From an uncultured Mycoplasmatota bacterium (GTDB lineage Bacteria > Bacillota_I > Bacilli_A > RF39 > UBA660), in contig CANRVY010000004.1 of NCBI GenBank assembly GCA_947643405.1, positions 1 through 64,000 on the forward strand: a stretch of DNA of 64,000 bases, read 5' to 3'. The notes under the pieces are model-generated. The model was given only the letters and a program-made list of their open reading frames with translations, was not told the origin of the DNA and did no database searches. Both the position numbers and the translations under genes were made by a program. Below, piece after piece: positions 2,366 through 53,008 of this stretch (position 1 is the first letter of the stretch; each line of letters begins with the position of its first letter).

Positions 2366-2469
2366 AACGAGATACTCTTTCATTTATTAAGGTATAATAT
2401 CATCCTAAAGCTATTATAACATACTTTTAAGCTTTTTTGTATTAGTTTTAAATATTTTTAGTTCATAAT

Positions 2470-2508
2470 AACAAAAAGTGAGCCAGCTTTCGCTGACTCT
2501 TCAGGGGG
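2470..2508 (-). terminator. Terminator element A with CTTCAGGGGG tag
   Basis: On the minus strand, a stem (2480-2487 with 2492-2499, one G-T pair, UUUC/GAAA loop) is followed by TTTTTG, so it should end the DUF1016-HEPN transcript. The 10-mer cttcaggggg (2499-2508) abuts it. The flank ttcataataacaaaaa to its left is nearly repeated at element B (4884-4900). Confidence 0.7.
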
Positions 2509-2624
2509 CTATTAAATTTTGGTTTATTTAGTTTTAAAACATTTATTTTTCTTTGTATTTTGTTTATTTTTTCCCAATTTTAATTAAAATAAATTAAAAC
2601 ATAAATATAAAAATTTCAAATTTT

Positions 2625-2644
2625 GCTACCTAAATGCTACCTAA
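2625..2644 (+). repeat. Tandem gctacctaa sites, left member of an inverted pair
   Basis: Two copies of gctacctaa (2625-2633 and 2636-2644) overlap the stop codon of the HEPN gene. The 13-mer aaatgctacctaa (2632-2644) recurs in inverted orientation at 4804-4816, upstream of the DUF1016 gene, so the two-gene operon is bracketed. Such short repeats resemble arm-type sites of tyrosine integrases; that reading is inference. Confidence 0.6.
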
Positions 2645-3735
2645 TATTTTTCACAAGTATCTATAATTTTTTTCTTCAATTCACTAGGGAATACTATATT
2701 ATACTCTTTTTCTAAAATATTTAATAAATTTTTTTGTTGCGAGGAAAAGTCATTTGAATTTAAAGCTGTAATAACCATTCTAATTTGTACCTCAAGTTTT
2801 TCATTACTATCAAGATATTTTAATATTTGTTTTGAGGTCTTTTTAGTATTCATAATAATAATCCAATAAGCAATAATTATTTTTCTTAAATATTTTCTTA
2901 ACAATTTTTCATCATTATCAGAAATGTTGTTAATCTTTGCTCCATGTACATAATCACATCTTTTTTTGTATAATCTCCTAATGTCATTGTATATTTGATT
3001 ATATAAATCCGGTTTATTTTCTGCTAATAATTTTGCTGAAAACTTTGATATTTTTTCTGTTACTTCTTTGGAATCCAAATTAAATATCGCCTCAAGGCTA
3101 CTAAATATAAGAATATATCTATTTGAAAGTTTATCACTTTCAAAGGAATCATTATACAATTCTAAAGCTCTTTTAAAATATTTATTATCTACTTCTTTCA
3201 TTGATTTTATATTTATATGAAATCTACTATTGTTACTAAATTCATTTGGATCTAGGTTATATGTCAAACGATTCCAATTAGATATGGGGTTATTTTGTTG
3301 TGCATAAAACAAAAATTTCTTATCAACATTAAAAAATTCAATATGTATTATCTGAAATATTAAAGGTATGTTAAACTCTATTCTGAGTTTTTGTTCTAAA
3401 TTATACACTCTTTCTATTATATCGTTATTTGAATTTAATAATTCCTTAAAATTACTTTTCTTTATTTCCATTTTATCAGGAATTTCAAATTTAATATAAT
3501 CATCGTTTTCTAGATAGCGATATATTAATTTTTCGTAATCGACTAAACAGGATATAAAATACAAATTCATATCTATTTCCATTCCATCCTTAGTAACAGT
3601 GTGATTTTTATCAAAGTATGATTCATCTAGATGTCCTTTTTTTAAGGAAAAACCATCTACAAAGTATTCTCCAATTGGATTAAAACCATTTACTAAAATT
3701 TTATATTTTATAAATATTTTTTTCATAATAGCCAT
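2641..3735 (-). CDS. Apea-like HEPN domain protein, candidate RNase
   Basis: A 364-residue protein whose C-terminal third resembles Apea-like HEPN domains: RYILIFSSLEAIF near 206, then RCDYVHG, giving the HEPN catalytic pattern R-x4-H (R259, H264). HEPN proteins with this motif are commonly metal-independent RNases in toxin-antitoxin and abortive infection systems. The first 200 residues are unrecognised, with no membrane segments. It lies six bases after the DUF1016 nuclease gene and must share its transcript. The first ATG is only two bases from AAAGG; the ATG at 3726 (MKKIFIKYK) is an alternative start. The HEPN call is from motif and context. Confidence 0.6.
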   Translation of the reverse strand: MAIMKKIFIKYKILVNGFNPIGEYFVDGFSLKKGHLDESYFDKNHTVTKDGMEIDMNLYFISCLVDYEKLIYRYLENDDYIKFEIPDKMEIKKSNFKELLNSNNDIIERVYNLEQKLRIEFNIPLIFQIIHIEFFNVDKKFLFYAQQNNPISNWNRLTYNLDPNEFSNNSRFHINIKSMKEVDNKYFKRALELYNDSFESDKLSNRYILIFSSLEAIFNLDSKEVTEKISKFSAKLLAENKPDLYNQIYNDIRRLYKKRCDYVHGAKINNISDNDEKLLRKYLRKIIIAYWIIIMNTKKTSKQILKYLDSNEKLEVQIRMVITALNSNDFSSQQKNLLNILEKEYNIVFPSELKKKIIDTCEKY

Positions 3736-3741
3736 TACCTT

Positions 3742-4746
3742 TTATTCAACAATATCAATATGTAAATTCAATTCTTCTTCTGTGGGTAATTTATTCTGGA
3801 TTTCTTTAGATAATTGTTCAAATATTTTATATTCGCTAACACCTACAGGCTTATTGATATATTTTAAGGTATAATCAACTATTTTATTACTTTTAGTTTG
3901 GCATAATATAATTCCTATTGAAGGATTATCATTTTCATCTTTTATTTCTTCATCTAAAGCGGTAAGATAAAATCCCATTTTACTTGCAAATTCTGGCTTA
4001 AATTCTACTACTTTTAATTCTACTGCAATATAGCATTTTAATTTAATATGATAAAATAACAAATCTATATGAAAATCTTGATGATCTATTGTTATTTTGT
4101 ACTGATTTCCAACAAAAGAAAAACCACTACCTAGCTCAAGTAAAATATTTTTTAATCTATCTAGCATTTTATTTTCTAATTCTTTTTCCTTGTAATCGTC
4201 GGTTAATTCAATTAAATCAAATACATATGGCTCTTTCATAATATTATTTGCAAGATCACTATTTTGCTTTAAAGTTAATTTAAAATTATTATGTTTTATT
4301 GCGCTCACTTGTCTATCATAAAGATTAGTATCTATTTGATAAATTAAAATACTATCCGACCAACCATCTTCTAAACATCTATTCATATACCATTTGCGAA
4401 TTTCTTTATCTTTTACTTTTTGCATTAATGTAATGTTATGTTTCCATGGTAATTGTGCAACCAGTTGCACAAATTCTTCATCATCTTTATACTCATTATA
4501 AAAGGTTTTCATATATTTTAAATTACGAACAGAAAAACCCTTTAAATTAGAAAACGATAATTTTAATTCCATTGCTACATTATCTATAAATTTATTTCCC
4601 CAACTACTATTTTCTTCTAATGTTTTTCCTATATTATAATACAAATTAACTAATTTTTTATTAGCATCTGTCATAATTTCTAATTGAGTTTTGGTAATAG
4701 CATTTTTAATATTGCTTGTTATCTCTTGAAACGATTTATCTAGCAT
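3742..4746 (-). CDS. DUF1016 (YhcG-type) PD-(D/E)xK nuclease
   Basis: A full-length 334-residue DUF1016 protein. The N-terminal helical domain (residues 1-150) has NLYYNIGKTLEE and GFSVRNLKYMKTFYNEY; the C-terminal nuclease domain has the PD-(D/E)xK core D228, E243, K245 (FHIDLLFY...AVELK). The family is widespread in gut bacteria and often sits with restriction or mobile genes; a nuclease role in defence is inferred. The ATG is preceded by AGGAGG at good spacing and a TATAAT about 4770-4775. The HEPN gene follows directly. An N-terminal fragment of a paralogue is at 42-497. Confidence 0.85.
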   Translation of the reverse strand: MLDKSFQEITSNIKNAITKTQLEIMTDANKKLVNLYYNIGKTLEENSSWGNKFIDNVAMELKLSFSNLKGFSVRNLKYMKTFYNEYKDDEEFVQLVAQLPWKHNITLMQKVKDKEIRKWYMNRCLEDGWSDSILIYQIDTNLYDRQVSAIKHNNFKLTLKQNSDLANNIMKEPYVFDLIELTDDYKEKELENKMLDRLKNILLELGSGFSFVGNQYKITIDHQDFHIDLLFYHIKLKCYIAVELKVVEFKPEFASKMGFYLTALDEEIKDENDNPSIGIILCQTKSNKIVDYTLKYINKPVGVSEYKIFEQLSKEIQNKLPTEEELNLHIDIVE

Positions 4747-4803
4747 AGTTAACCTCCTTATATATGATTATTATATCATTTTACAAGCTTTTTTTATACT
4801 ATT

Positions 4804-4816
4804 TTAGGTAGCATTT
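4804..4816 (-). repeat. Right member of the inverted 13-bp repeat
   Basis: The reverse complement reads aaatgctacctaa, identical to 2632-2644. It lies 58 bases upstream of the DUF1016 start codon, so the repeat pair encloses the whole two-gene operon. Confidence 0.6.
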
Positions 4817-4889
4817 TTGTTAAACTTTTTTAATCAAAATTAACACTTTTTAACCTTTTTCATGTAAATTTTAATCACCTTTAATTCAT

Positions 4890-4992
4890 AGTAACAAAAA
4901 TGGAGCGCTATGCGCTCCTTCAGGGGGTTTTGGTTGACAACTATCCACATTTTATTCCGTAAATAGTTATCTTGCGTGACATCCATCACGCT
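4890..4992 (-). ncRNA. Candidate small RNA ending in terminator element B
   Basis: A promoter is readable on the minus strand: TTGACA (5022-5027), a 17-base spacer and TATAGT (4999-5004), putting the start near 4992. The transcript contains a perfect 6-bp stem (gcgtga...tcacgc, 4974-4991), a second pairing of AACTAT with ATAGTT, then CCCCCTGAAG (4918-4927), a perfect 7-bp stem (4902-4908 with 4912-4918) and TTTTTG. No reading frame fits. The terminator may also serve recG, whose stop is at 5044. Function unknown. Confidence 0.45.
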
Positions 4993-5043
4993 ATTATAAC
5001 TATACAGTAAAAATAAAATTTTGTCAAGTTGAGAAAAGCTACT

Positions 5044-7118: not shown

Positions 7119-7250
7119 TTGACAAATAACCTTTTTTCTATTAGTATATACAGTACCAATTCGAATTAGACGAATTGGCGCTAGTATCACACTAGCCAAC
7201 CCCTTTTTATTCTTTTATAGGAGTGGTCTTCAGGGGGCCACTCTTTTTTT
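7119..7250 (+). promoter_or_regulatory. Promoter, structured leader and terminator before the SDR gene
   Basis: TTGACA (7119-7124), 17 bases and TAGTAT (7142-7147) form a promoter reading toward the SDR. The leader folds into a perfect 8-bp stem (ccaattcg...cgaattgg, about 7156-7178), a 6-bp stem (gctagt...actagc, 7180-7196) and a terminator, gagtgg (7221-7226) with ccactc (7238-7243), followed by seven T. The terminator loop carries cttcaggggg, the tag also found at 2499 and 4918. The start codon is 50 bases beyond. It looks like a transcription attenuator or riboswitch, or a small RNA; I do not recognise the class. Confidence 0.5.
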
Positions 7251-8609: not shown

Positions 8610-11552
8610 TTATAATTCCTCTAACTTTACACTAACTAGTTTACTAACACCAGATTCTTGCATCGTAATTCCATATAGCACATCAGCATATTCCATTGTT
8701 TTTTTCTTATGTGTAATCAAGATAAATTGTGTCTTTTCTTTTAATTTCAATAAATATTTTCCAAAGCTATCTACATTTACTTCATCTAAAGCTGCTTCCA
8801 CTTCATCTAATACACAAAATGGAACTGGACGAGATTTCAAAATAGCAAACAATAGACTAATTGCAGTAAAGGTTTTCTCTCCACCTGATAATAAAGATAT
8901 ACTTGTTAATTTTTTTCCAGGAGGAGAAGCAACAATTTCAATTCCAGTTTCTAATATGTTAGACGGATCTGTTAATTTTAGTGCCGCATTTCCACCATGG
9001 AATAATTCTTTAAACGTTTCTTCAAAGTGGCCACTGATCATTTTAAAAGTATCCATGAATTCATGTTCCATAACAGAATCCATTTCTGAAATAATTTCTA
9101 GTAGTGTATTTTCAGCTCCCATCAAATCTTCAGATTGATGAATTAAAAATTCATAGCGTTCACTTACTCTTGCATATTCTTCAATTGCTCCTAAATTTAC
9201 CATTCCTAATTCTTTGATATTTCTTTTTAAATTCATAACTTTAGTTCTGGCTATTTCTTCTTCCATTCCAAGAGCATAATCTGCTCTTGCTTTTTCAAAT
9301 GTCATATTATAAGTTTCACTTAAAGTAGATAAATAATGATCTAACTTAACATCCATTCTGTTAACTTCAATTTCCAACTCTTTTAATTCTTTATTTTTCG
9401 CATTCAATGCACTATTTTCTCTTCGTTGCTCAAACTCAAACTCCTGCAATTCTTCTGTTAGTTCTTGTTTTTCTTTCATTTTATTAGAAAGTTCTAATTC
9501 AATGCTTTTCTTTTGCTGTTCCTTTAAATAAAAATCATTTAAAATTTCCTGTTCTTCTTCATCTAATGTTTGATTCATCAAATGATTCATACTTGTTATT
9601 TCTTCTATCAAATGATTTAATTCTTCTGTTCTATCACCTATCAAAATCTGCTTATTTTTTATAATCTCTTCCATTTCTATGAAAGATTTATTCGCCAAAT
9701 ATTCATTATCTTCAATACTTTTGGTTATAGTATCTGCCTCATTAATTTGATTTTCTAATTCTTGGATAGATTTAACGACACTATCATGTTCTTTTAATTT
9801 CGTTTCTAATTCCTGTTTTTCTGTGAGCACATTTCTATTTTTAGAAGTTTCTCCTCCAGTCAAAGATCCTCCAACATGAAGTAATTCGCCATCTAATGTA
9901 ACAATGCGATACCGATAATTTATCTTTCTAGCAATTTTATTGGCTTCATCAATTGTATTTGCTACTAATACATTTCCCAATTGATTCTTAATAATTGCAT
10001 CATACTTTTTATCATAGTGAACAAGATTAGAAGCAATGTCAATTGCGATATTTAATTCAGATATCTGTTTTATAGTCTCCATATCAACATATTTCGGCTT
10101 AATGATATTCATTGGAAAAAAAGTTGCTCTTCCTTGTCTATTTTGCTTTAAATAGTTGATGGCTTCTTTCGCACTTTCCTCATCTTCCACAATAATATAG
10201 CTTGTAGCAAATCCCAGACTTGTCATAATAGCTTTTATATATTGATCTTCTACTTCAATAATATTGCCAATTACATTATGAATTCCTCTTAATTTGGGAT
10301 GATCTAAAACAGCTTTTACGGATGAAGGAAGAGCTCCATTATGTTCAATACTATCTTGTAATTGTTCTATTTTTATATTCAGACTCTGTTCTAATCTTAC
10401 TTGCTTTGTTAAAGTTTCTTCTAATTCACGTTTTGTTTTTTTTCGCTTTTCTAAGTCTTTTTGATATCCTTCAACTTTTAACCATTCTTTTTGTAGAGCA
10501 TCTTTTAAATTACTAATTTCTTGATTTAATAGTTCTATTTGATTCTTTAATTTTAGTTCTTCTTCTTTTAGAGCTACCATTTCTTGATGAATCTTTCTAT
10601 CCTCTACTTCATGTTTTTTTCTTTCTAATAATACTGCTTTTCGACTATTCAGTTGTTCTACTAATTTTGTATATTCTAATAAAGAAGTTTGTAAGTCACT
10701 AATTTCCATTTCTAATTTGGTTGTTTTTAATTTATATTCTTCTATTTTTGCATCTCCTGATGTTTTTTCAAAATTGGCATTCAATAATTCTTTATTTAAA
10801 GTTTCAATTCGGTCTTTTTTATTTTGATACTCTTCATTTACTTTTTCTATGTCAGAAGCAATCAAAGCGATTTCTATTTGTTCTAATTCATTCTTTGCTT
10901 GCAAATATTTCTCAGCTTGTTCTTTTTGTTCTTTAAGTGGAGTCACTTGAACTTCTAACTCTTTCATAATATCATTGACACGATTCATATTATCATGCGT
11001 ACGATCTAGTTTTCTTAAGGCTTCTTCTTTTCTCCTTTTATATTTTAAAACTCCTGCTGCTTCTTCAAAAATAATTCTTCTATCAGTTGGTTTACTACTA
11101 ATGATCTCTTCTATTTTTCCCTGTGAAATAATGTTAAAACTCTCTTTTGCTACTCCACTATCCATCAATACTTCTGTAATGTCTTTCAATCTACATTTTT
11201 CTCCATTTAAAGAATATTCATTTGTTCCATCTCTATAAACACGTCTTTTAATAGATACTTCATCATAATTAACTGGTAAATAATGATCTTTATTATCAAA
11301 TACTAATGTGACACTTGCTACATTCATTCCATTTCTAGATTTGCTTCCAGAAAATATTACATCTGCCATATTTCCTTCTCCACGAAGCGATTTCACAGAT
11401 TGTTCTCCAAGAACCCAACGAATGGCATCTACTACATTGCTTTTTCCACTTCCATTTGGTCCTACAACTCCAGTAATCCCATTATTTAATTCTATATCAA
11501 CATGATCTGCAAATGATTTAAAACCATGTGCTTTTATATTCTTTAGATACAT
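8610..11552 (-). CDS. smc: Chromosome segregation SMC ATPase (short-arm form)
   Basis: SMC dimers organise and segregate the chromosome together with ScpA/ScpB. Walker A is GPNGSGKSN (residues 32-40), the signature motif LLSGGEKT and Walker B FCVLDEVEAALDE are near the C terminus, and the hinge is in the middle (LRGIHNVIGNIIEVEDQYIKA). Both coiled-coil arms are shorter than in Bacillus (980 versus about 1,186 residues), a length known for Mycoplasma SMC/P115 proteins. The ATG start (MYLKNIKAHGFKSF) matches the family. The usual neighbours rnc and ftsY are absent; the gene follows the surface/polyphosphate cluster. Confidence 0.95.
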   Translation of the reverse strand: MYLKNIKAHGFKSFADHVDIELNNGITGVVGPNGSGKSNVVDAIRWVLGEQSVKSLRGEGNMADVIFSGSKSRNGMNVASVTLVFDNKDHYLPVNYDEVSIKRRVYRDGTNEYSLNGEKCRLKDITEVLMDSGVAKESFNIISQGKIEEIISSKPTDRRIIFEEAAGVLKYKRRKEEALRKLDRTHDNMNRVNDIMKELEVQVTPLKEQKEQAEKYLQAKNELEQIEIALIASDIEKVNEEYQNKKDRIETLNKELLNANFEKTSGDAKIEEYKLKTTKLEMEISDLQTSLLEYTKLVEQLNSRKAVLLERKKHEVEDRKIHQEMVALKEEELKLKNQIELLNQEISNLKDALQKEWLKVEGYQKDLEKRKKTKRELEETLTKQVRLEQSLNIKIEQLQDSIEHNGALPSSVKAVLDHPKLRGIHNVIGNIIEVEDQYIKAIMTSLGFATSYIIVEDEESAKEAINYLKQNRQGRATFFPMNIIKPKYVDMETIKQISELNIAIDIASNLVHYDKKYDAIIKNQLGNVLVANTIDEANKIARKINYRYRIVTLDGELLHVGGSLTGGETSKNRNVLTEKQELETKLKEHDSVVKSIQELENQINEADTITKSIEDNEYLANKSFIEMEEIIKNKQILIGDRTEELNHLIEEITSMNHLMNQTLDEEEQEILNDFYLKEQQKKSIELELSNKMKEKQELTEELQEFEFEQRRENSALNAKNKELKELEIEVNRMDVKLDHYLSTLSETYNMTFEKARADYALGMEEEIARTKVMNLKRNIKELGMVNLGAIEEYARVSERYEFLIHQSEDLMGAENTLLEIISEMDSVMEHEFMDTFKMISGHFEETFKELFHGGNAALKLTDPSNILETGIEIVASPPGKKLTSISLLSGGEKTFTAISLLFAILKSRPVPFCVLDEVEAALDEVNVDSFGKYLLKLKEKTQFILITHKKKTMEYADVLYGITMQESGVSKLVSVKLEEL

Positions 11553-11673
11553 TCTACCACATCCATATTTTATATTCTTTAACGCTATTCATTATATCAT
11601 ACTTTATAAAACAATTCTAGTCTTATGAATAAAGCCCCTCTTTTTATTCCAAAGAAAAATAAGGTAAAATACC

Positions 11674-13290
11674 TTATTTTACAATCCAAGCATTTGGAAC
11701 ATATCGTTGTTTGCTAGTAGGATCTACAGAACAACAAGGACGATTTGTAAGTTTTCCTTCTACGACCAAGGTAGTTGATCCTCCCCCATCTAAATTAACC
11801 GCATTATGAGCATTGTATCGTTGCAATATTTTGATTAATCCTCCCATATCGATTCCAATACTATGGCCAACTTGTCTTCCATCTATAACTAAAAATAAAA
11901 CAATTCCATCTTTTCTTTGCGCTAAGACAGTACGAGAAGCAAGTCCCCAACCGCCATCACCTTTTATATCTGCTGCTTTTCCATTTACAATTAGAAATGG
12001 TCCAAATTCAACTGCATCCACCATACCATTCTTGATTGCTGTAGCTGGATCATCTCTGGTTAAAACCAAAACATGATCCTTATTAAAGCCTGAAAGTCCT
12101 CCTCCATATCCTGAAGAAGAACCTGTTGCTATAATTTTTCCATTCATAATAACAGTTCCTACTGCTGTACTTCCTTTATTTCCTCCATCATAGAATCCAC
12201 TTGCATTAATGGCAACTTTAGCATTGTTTCTTTTTGAAATATCGGTTAGGAAAGCGCCTCCATAATTGGTATTGGTAGCCCCTACTAATTTTACCCTTGA
12301 GGCATCATAAATTGCAATTAAATGTCCAGAATAATTGTTTTCTTTTATTTCAATAACTTTATACAATTGATCTTTATCACGTTTTAAAATCTGTTCTTCA
12401 TAAATAGAAGAATATTCCCCAGTATCTTTTCCATCTTCAAAGTTAATATCACTACTGTTAGTATTCTCATCTATTTCTGTTAATGTATTATTACTTAAAA
12501 TTTTCTCTATTGTTTTTTCACTATAAAAAGTTCTTGCTAAATATTTATGACTCATTGTTGTCATAGCCGATGTTACTAATAAATTTCTAAAATAAGAAAT
12601 AGGGCCATAAGTTAGAAAAAGTCCAGTGCAGGCAAATAAGTCCATAATAACACAAATAACAATTCCAACAATTAAGCCTTTTCCTAATTTTGTAGGTTTT
12701 TCTTTTGGTTTTTTTTCTTTCTTTTTCTGTTCTCTTTTAGAAGACTTCTTTTTACTTGTTTTCTCTTTTTTCTCTGTGTCTTTTTTATCTAATGGCTCTT
12801 CTTCTTGAATTTCCTTTTTCGTTTTTTCATTCGATTTAGTGTCTTCCTTTTTTATCTCTTCTTTTTCTTCATGCTTACTTTTTTCTTTTTTTACAGGTTC
12901 TTTTTTTAATTCCTCTTCTTTTCTTTTTTTCAATAATTCTCTAAGATCCTGCTTTGTTTCTTCAACAGTTTTCTTAGGAATACTAGGAGTTTTTGTTGTT
13001 TCTTTTTCTATTGTCTTTCTTGAATCTTTAGGTGTTATATCTTTCTTTGGCTCTACTTTTTTCTCTTCAATTGATGCTACAACTTTTTTTGTAATTACCT
13101 CTTTTTTTGGTTCCTCTTTTACTAATGGTGTTACTTTTAATACTTCTTTTTTGGGTTCATTTGAACTCTCTTTTTGTTTATTTAAATCCCTTTCTCTTCT
13201 CTTTAATTCTAGAAAGCTTCCAATATTAAGAGAGGAATACACTGACGCTTCTAATTCTTTTTTCGATTCATTTTTTTCTTCTCTTTCCAT
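11674..13290 (-). CDS. Membrane-anchored phosphodiester glycosidase (NAGPA) family protein
   Basis: A 538-residue protein in three parts: a highly charged Lys/Glu-rich cytoplasmic N terminus (about 1-200), one membrane helix (GLIVGIVICVIMDLFACTGLFL, about 205-230), and a C-terminal phosphodiester glycosidase domain (PF09992-like) with AINASGFYDGG, SRTVLAQ, HSIGIDMGGL and NLDGGGSTTLVV. The family cleaves sugar phosphodiesters. It lies 15 bases after DUF4956 and is last in the CotH-VTC-DUF4956 operon, suggesting a joint role in making or trimming a surface polymer; that is inference. AGGAGG precedes the ATG. Confidence 0.85.
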   Translation of the reverse strand: MEREEKNESKKELEASVYSSLNIGSFLELKRRERDLNKQKESSNEPKKEVLKVTPLVKEEPKKEVITKKVVASIEEKKVEPKKDITPKDSRKTIEKETTKTPSIPKKTVEETKQDLRELLKKRKEEELKKEPVKKEKSKHEEKEEIKKEDTKSNEKTKKEIQEEEPLDKKDTEKKEKTSKKKSSKREQKKKEKKPKEKPTKLGKGLIVGIVICVIMDLFACTGLFLTYGPISYFRNLLVTSAMTTMSHKYLARTFYSEKTIEKILSNNTLTEIDENTNSSDINFEDGKDTGEYSSIYEEQILKRDKDQLYKVIEIKENNYSGHLIAIYDASRVKLVGATNTNYGGAFLTDISKRNNAKVAINASGFYDGGNKGSTAVGTVIMNGKIIATGSSSGYGGGLSGFNKDHVLVLTRDDPATAIKNGMVDAVEFGPFLIVNGKAADIKGDGGWGLASRTVLAQRKDGIVLFLVIDGRQVGHSIGIDMGGLIKILQRYNAHNAVNLDGGGSTTLVVEGKLTNRPCCSVDPTSKQRYVPNAWIVK

Positions 13291-23940: not shown

Positions 23941-24122
23941 AAAAAAAAAGCCCAAATAATCGGTGCTCGCAACGATAAAAACCTGATCTCCCAGGTGGGC
24001 ATCACAGAATTCATATCAGGATTCTTGTATAAATACAAGCTTTCAACAACAATAAATTCATTAGATTCCCAATCGTTATAAATTAGTAGGTTTTTCTAAT
24101 TAAGCTACCATATCATTTAGGC
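23941..24122 (-). ncRNA. ssrS: Probable 6S RNA
   Basis: A sharply bounded RNA of about 180 nt. The promoter (ATGACA 24153-24158, 18-base spacer, TATAAT 24129-24134) puts the start at GCC, 24122. The 5' end GCCTAAATGAT pairs with the 3' end ATTATTTGGGC over 11 bp (two G-U), and a T-run follows at 23940-23949. A long closing stem, a large open middle, and the 3' segment GCCCACCTGGGAGATCAGG fit Bacillota 6S RNA, which binds the housekeeping RNA polymerase. In Bacillus one 6S gene also lies close to aspS, as here. Identity is inferred from size, shape and place. Confidence 0.6.
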
Positions 24123-24128
24123 AATTTC

Positions 24129-52861: not shown

Positions 52862-53008
52862 ATTACACCTCCTCTATTTTGTGTAATACCGTATAAAAAG
52901 AGTCTACACTTTACCGTAAGACTCTTTATGTTTTAAAAACTTCCTCGGTAGGAAATATTAAGCTTTAAAGCTCCTACTGTCTACGGTATTTATTCTTTTT
53001 TCAAAAGC
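52862..53008 (-). promoter_or_regulatory. L10 leader with attenuator
   Basis: A roughly 145-nt leader. Its 5' AATACCGTA (about 52985-52993) pairs perfectly with TACGGTATT (about 52887-52895), closing the whole structure. Inside is a terminator stem AAGAGTCT/AGACTCTT (52898-52926) followed by TTTTT. L10(L12)4 binding is known to control rplJL in Bacillota through such a leader. Confidence 0.8.

Follow-up and report, generated by a model that had tools for sequence, protein, structure and literature searches.

A probable integrase-less integrative cassette with a DUF1016 nuclease gene and a HEPN-motif gene downstream of recG in an uncultured Mycoplasmatota bacterium

Two genes and the boxes around them

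The DNA analysed here (the window) is a stretch of 64,000 nucleotides from an uncultured Mycoplasmatota bacterium, in which two adjacent genes lie on the reverse strand downstream of recG. The first, at 3742-4746 (-), is intact and encodes a protein of 334 residues belonging to the DUF1016/YhcG family of PD-(D/E)XK nucleases; the second, at 2641-3735 (-), starts 6 bp downstream of it and encodes a protein of 364 residues with the HEPN-type motif R259-x4-H264. Both domains of the DUF1016 protein score above the curated Pfam cut-offs (PF17761, E=7.6e-39; PF06250, E=1.5e-58), the match to the PADLOC candidate family PDC-S02 is very strong (E=1.6e-124), and the catalytic residues D228, E243 and K245 are all present. 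The protein thus resembles its family in domains and active site, but differs in lying on what is probably a small integrative cassette, together with a HEPN-motif gene. To our knowledge, no function has been established for DUF1016/YhcG proteins. A preliminary description of this DNA had pointed out the three nuclease residues, the R-x4-H protein six bases further on and a 13-mer inverted around the gene pair, and we confirm each of these observations.

The second protein is more difficult to place. It resembles HEPN RNases with an R-x4-H(G) motif in that R259, H264 and G265 are kept in a distant Nostoc plasmid protein annotated as HEPN (L028; tblastn E=7e-7), but it departs from them in matching no HEPN family of Pfam, NCBIfam or PADLOC and in having a long N-terminal region of unfamiliar kind; no HEPN profile matches the Nostoc relative either. 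The only matches to the window protein were two distant proteins from cyanobacterial plasmids; no relative besides the window's own copy was found in 395 genomes of the class and 392 of the phylum (overlapping samples), pattern searches returned no homologue in genome or viral contigs, and there was none among phages or PDB sequences. A single-sequence AlphaFold2 model reached a pLDDT of 33, too low to say anything about the fold. The protein is probably an RNase. A literature search returned no paper joining DUF1016 with HEPN.

The 13-mer, AAATGCTACCTAA, occurs at 2632-2644 (+) and 4804-4816 (-), with no further match at ≤1 mismatch in the 64 kb; such a pair arose in 0 of 100 shuffles. It corresponds to a box, TAGGTAGCA, which is present in one copy on the right and in two tandem copies on the left. 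The left 13-mer is embedded in this tandem (2624-2633 and 2635-2644, TAGGTAGCATTTAGGTAGCA), which begins at the stop codon of the HEPN-motif gene and forms part of a tandem 11-bp repeat, TAGGTAGCATTTAGGTAGCAAAATTT, at 2618-2645 (-); we refer to it as the tail. The single box at the head is the right 13-mer itself, at 4804-4816 (-), about 60 bp upstream of the DUF1016 start.

Cores, terminators and a small-RNA-like target

Further out, at approximately 100-135 bp from the boxes, CTTCAGGGGG is directly repeated, at 2499-2508 and 4918-4927; the two copies are the candidate att cores of the far side and the recG side, respectively (CCCCCTGAAG, (-) strand, in both). When window and genome were searched, TTCAGGGGG was confined to this locus, with three sites of which the third is upstream of recG. 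A genome-wide search for TTCAGGGGGCT at ≤1 mismatch gave, besides the three locus sites, one site elsewhere (TACAGGGGGCT), and the idea of a repeat dispersed through the genome was rejected on this basis. A 59-nt direct repeat (2425-2483 and 4848-4906, 76% identical) also lies outside both copies of the 13-mer and runs into two terminator hairpins and CTTCAGGGGG, so that the repeated segments span 2425-2508 and 4848-4927. The hairpin at the recG-side core, GGAGCGCATAGCGCTCC at 4902-4918 (-), is read as supplied by the element, and the one after the far core, GAGTCAGCGAAAGCTGGCTC at 2480-2499 (-), recurs at the recG-side core of the congener G005 and at the cores of two loci in other genomes, L054 and L107. 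Between the window cores there are the two genes alone, with no integrase, relaxase, transposase or invertase.

The repeat copy at 2425-2483 (-), which is also 82.7% identical to a site in the congener G003, appears to be the truncated head end of a second, decayed tandem element. This element would occupy 1-2508 of the window, where the truncated head is accompanied by an XRE-like gene, a beta-lactamase-family hydrolase, a nucleoside-deoxyribosyltransferase-like protein and a fragment with DUF1016_N only (42-497), the G003 counterpart of which is full length and 90% identical in DNA.

A small-RNA-like unit behind recG, at 4895-4998 (-), has the recG-side core as its 3' end. It consists of two hairpins, an invariant ACCAAAACCCCCTGAAG and a terminator, and its 3' end would be the insertion target. 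Its promoter-like site, TTGACA-17-TATAGT at 4999-5027 (-), is kept in the congeners G001, G002 and G005. In an alignment of 19 sites taken from congeners, other recG loci and integrase-flanking sites, the C-rich ACCAAAACCCCCTGAAG is invariant and the two hairpins are common to all; 93.4% of the cells are paired (67.4% when shuffled), 79 cells are doubly changed (25.2 when shuffled), and the covariation score is 0.717, as compared with 0.258 after shuffling and at most 0.215 when the structure is slid along the alignment. Such sites occur at various chromosomal places across the taxonomic family of the host. With this strong covariation, and with no match in Rfam, the target looks like an undescribed family of structured RNA; a literature query on small RNAs and Rho-independent terminators as integrase targets matched no paper.

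A second small-RNA-like unit lies upstream of recG, at 7119-7247 (+), and is kept in all five congeners. The CTTCAGGGGG in its terminator loop is the perfect complement of CCCCCUGAAG in the downstream unit, and RNA-RNA pairing between the two units is possible. Elsewhere in the window, Rfam identifies a 6S RNA at 23945-24126 (-) and a ribosomal protein L10 leader at 52885-53004 (-).

Shared ends, exchangeable cargo and integrase-bearing relatives

The box TAGGTAGCA recurs at the ends of unrelated accessory cassettes across the family. The head box holds the same position in L037, L055, L073, L104 and L106, preceding DUF1016 in the first three of these loci and other cargo in L106. As a 26-nt pattern, the tail was matched at ≤3 mismatches by 22 of the 386 genomes of the family and by 20 of its 150 genera; reversed as a control, the pattern was absent from those 22. 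These counts are lower bounds because matching the tail at ≤3 and the core at ≤1 mismatch misses diverged ends. The accessory genes whose 3' ends the tail follows are unrelated to one another, and its exact sequence was absent from viral contigs. The distance from tail start to core is 132-135 nt in 9 of the 22 usable tail loci, against 0.03 expected, in draft assemblies where several loci are cut by contig ends. In the window this distance is 135 nt, which other genera preserve, and the sequence around each cassette end is conserved over about 145 bp between genera. What had been described as an inverted repeat is best read, from this comparison, as the landing pads of a tyrosine integrase encoded by sister elements.

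One such element, of 8.4 kb, is found in the genome G575 of another genus (C6:31462-39893) and has the same core and boxes. Its order is core, double box, a 390-aa tyrosine integrase, Mob_Pre, AAA_25, a 79-aa protein where an excisionase would be expected, XRE-like genes, cargo, double box and core; at the head there are two boxes, versus one in the window. The integrase combines a catalytic domain, a SAM-like domain and PF14657 (Arm-DNA-bind_4). At E ≤ 1e-40 its relatives occur in 131 of 376 family genomes, and the window's genome contains none; no integrase-bearing element was seen in the window's own genus. Among 30 integrase loci, 17 have a core 79-304 bp past the integrase, 15 of them in the expected orientation, and the tandem 10-11-bp repeats between integrase and core vary with the integrase subfamily (TGCTACCTA in L120 and L126, TGTTACATA in L121-L124, TGCCACCTA in L128, GGTACCTA in L138 and L147), which is the layout expected of arm-type sites. 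A second G575 integrase (429 aa, L101 8481-9770) was dropped as a candidate helper, since its gene is not between the element's cores.

The cargo between these ends is variable. Behind recG, and partly from our own reading of the sequences, there is a VanZ-like gene in G001, a SIR2-like gene in G002, a HigBA-like pair in G005, and in G003 a DUF1016 fragment, a full DUF1016 gene and other genes; no such unit was seen behind recG in G004. A clean empty site was not found, as congeners without the gene pair bear other cargo there. G005, in which the far-side hairpin stands at the recG-side core, was rejected as an empty site because the HigBA-like pair is present. Sister cassettes elsewhere carry DUF1016 as a single gene (L150), DUF1016 with PIN_12 (L054), a shortened DUF1016 of another subfamily with a Hypoth_Ymh protein bearing an R-x4-H motif, RNPSHH (L104), a HipA-like and HIRAN pair (L107) or a DUF4160 protein (L106); in L054 an integrase gene is followed by a core and then by the DUF1016-PIN cassette, closed by a second core. 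In L103 an IS110-family transposase gene (10949-11755) lies between the recG-side core and the tail. DUF1016 is also accompanied by DUF2441, by a broken KAP-like NTPase or by a 134-aa protein, and a core stands within 320 nt upstream in 11 of 69 DUF1016 loci, against about 0.8 expected. In Onthousia-like genomes (L046-L053, L059, L060, L062, L064, L065), DUF1016 stands alone at a single constant location, directly behind an undecaprenol-phosphatase-like gene, with no cores.

We consider it quite probable that 2509-4927 of the window is an integrase-less, att-flanked integrative element of 2.4 kb, with the nuclease and HEPN-motif genes as its cargo. A tyrosine integrase would bind the TAGGTAGCA arm boxes close to either end and recombine the CTTCAGGGGG cores. 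The element would thereby enter the small-RNA-like unit behind recG at its 3' end, and the terminator that it brings would replace that of the unit. The integrase would have to come from an integrase-bearing relative like that of G575, acting in trans or inserting next to the cassette (accretion); the window's genome has none at the threshold given above, so that present mobility is putative. The earlier proposal that the gene pair moves as a unit is therefore supported by the direct-repeat cores, the integrase-type boxes inside them, the differing cargo of congeners and the integrase-bearing relative with the same ends, while its implied route has to be changed from terminal inverted repeats to site-specific recombination of att type. 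For the cargo, a role in host defence or abortive infection is plausible from the protein families and from the toxin- and nuclease-type company in sister cassettes.

Competing readings and known systems

The preliminary description had also seen in the two genes a defence system cutting both RNA and DNA, and the operon-like spacing of 6 bp is what one would expect of components selected as a pair, as are the nuclease-type second genes, PIN_12 and Hypoth_Ymh, beside DUF1016 in L054 and L104. We consider such a dedicated two-component system unlikely, given the varied cargo of sister cassettes, in which DUF1016 stands alone or with quite different genes, and the lack of relatives of the HEPN-motif protein in the sampled genomes. 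The same description had suggested looking for the two genes as neighbours in other genomes, and among the 69 DUF1016 loci examined a partner related to this HEPN-motif protein is found in the window only; on this sampling, DUF1016 and the HEPN-motif gene are not a conserved pair. A broader theme of nuclease plus RNase is kept as a possibility because L104 combines a shortened DUF1016 with an R-x4-H protein. DUF1016 might instead serve the element itself, as a nuclease for homing, excision or stabilisation, with only the second gene being exchangeable. It indeed comes first after the head end in the window, L037, L045, L054, L055 and L150, and occurs beside cores more often than expected, but the same ends occur without it in L106, L107 and the integrase-bearing elements of L101 and L113, and the majority of DUF1016 genes are away from any core, which makes this reading rather improbable.

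Two further explanations concern the 13-mers alone. That they are regulatory operators of the operon draws on the overlap of the right copy with a promoter-like site upstream of DUF1016 (4823-4796) and on the tandem 11-bp spacing, which would also suit a repressor; we regard this as very improbable, since the same boxes mark the ends of cassettes with unrelated genes, at a fixed distance from the core and beside integrase genes. Their inverted arrangement around the gene pair could equally recall the 13-bp terminal repeats of a transposon, or an invertible, phase-variable segment, a reading to which we give hardly any weight: there is no transposase or invertase inside, the boxes are asymmetric (one versus two), and conservation continues for 100-135 bp past them to the direct-repeat cores.

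An integrative element mobilised by a helper integrase, as preferred here, has its closest parallel in CIMEs, which are decayed derivatives of ICEs or IMEs that have kept their att sites and move by accretion; published cargo CIMEs range from 1.2 to 13 kb (PMC7563491). The window presents the corresponding features, namely direct-repeat cores, no integrase or relaxase inside and a related IME with the same att sites in G575. It shares with the CIMEs and IMEs of Firmicutes att-flanked DNA without integrase, a relative with integrase and relaxase having the same ends, and tandem accretion at one target, but where they target coding or tRNA genes at the 3' end (PMC7563491), the target here is a small-RNA-like terminator. 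Moreover, here the ends stay constant and the cargo varies in several genera, including single-gene cassettes of 1.3 kb, while mobilisation is deduced from sequence comparison.

More tentatively, and with somewhat less than even confidence, we suggest that the locus belongs to a family-wide economy of integrase-less mini-cassettes of 1.3-2.4 kb, often with one or two defence-type genes, which would share their att ends with small mobilizable elements, land in the terminator of a single, undescribed small-RNA family and swap terminators in the process. If so, this would constitute a cassette system outside integrons, with the site downstream of recG as one loading dock, and small accessory or defence-type genes could cross genera of small-genome, mostly uncultured Bacilli without a mobility gene of their own. 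Such cargo can be looked for by combining ACCAAAACCCCCTGAAG and a terminator with arm boxes at a distance of about 135 bp.

The resemblance to integron cassettes and CALIN arrays lies in integrase-less, exchangeable accessory genes behind a promoter-like site and in hairpins at the recombination sites, whereas the two-ended att architecture seen here contrasts with the one attC per cassette of integrons (PMC11389934). Were helper-driven excision to occur, it would amount to an integron-like exchange of cassettes with a different enzyme and site logic. On the side of the integrase, an integron cassette proper was rejected, as the helper integrase, which has an arm-binding domain, scores 55.7 bits against the integron integrase profile, far below its cut-off of 265.
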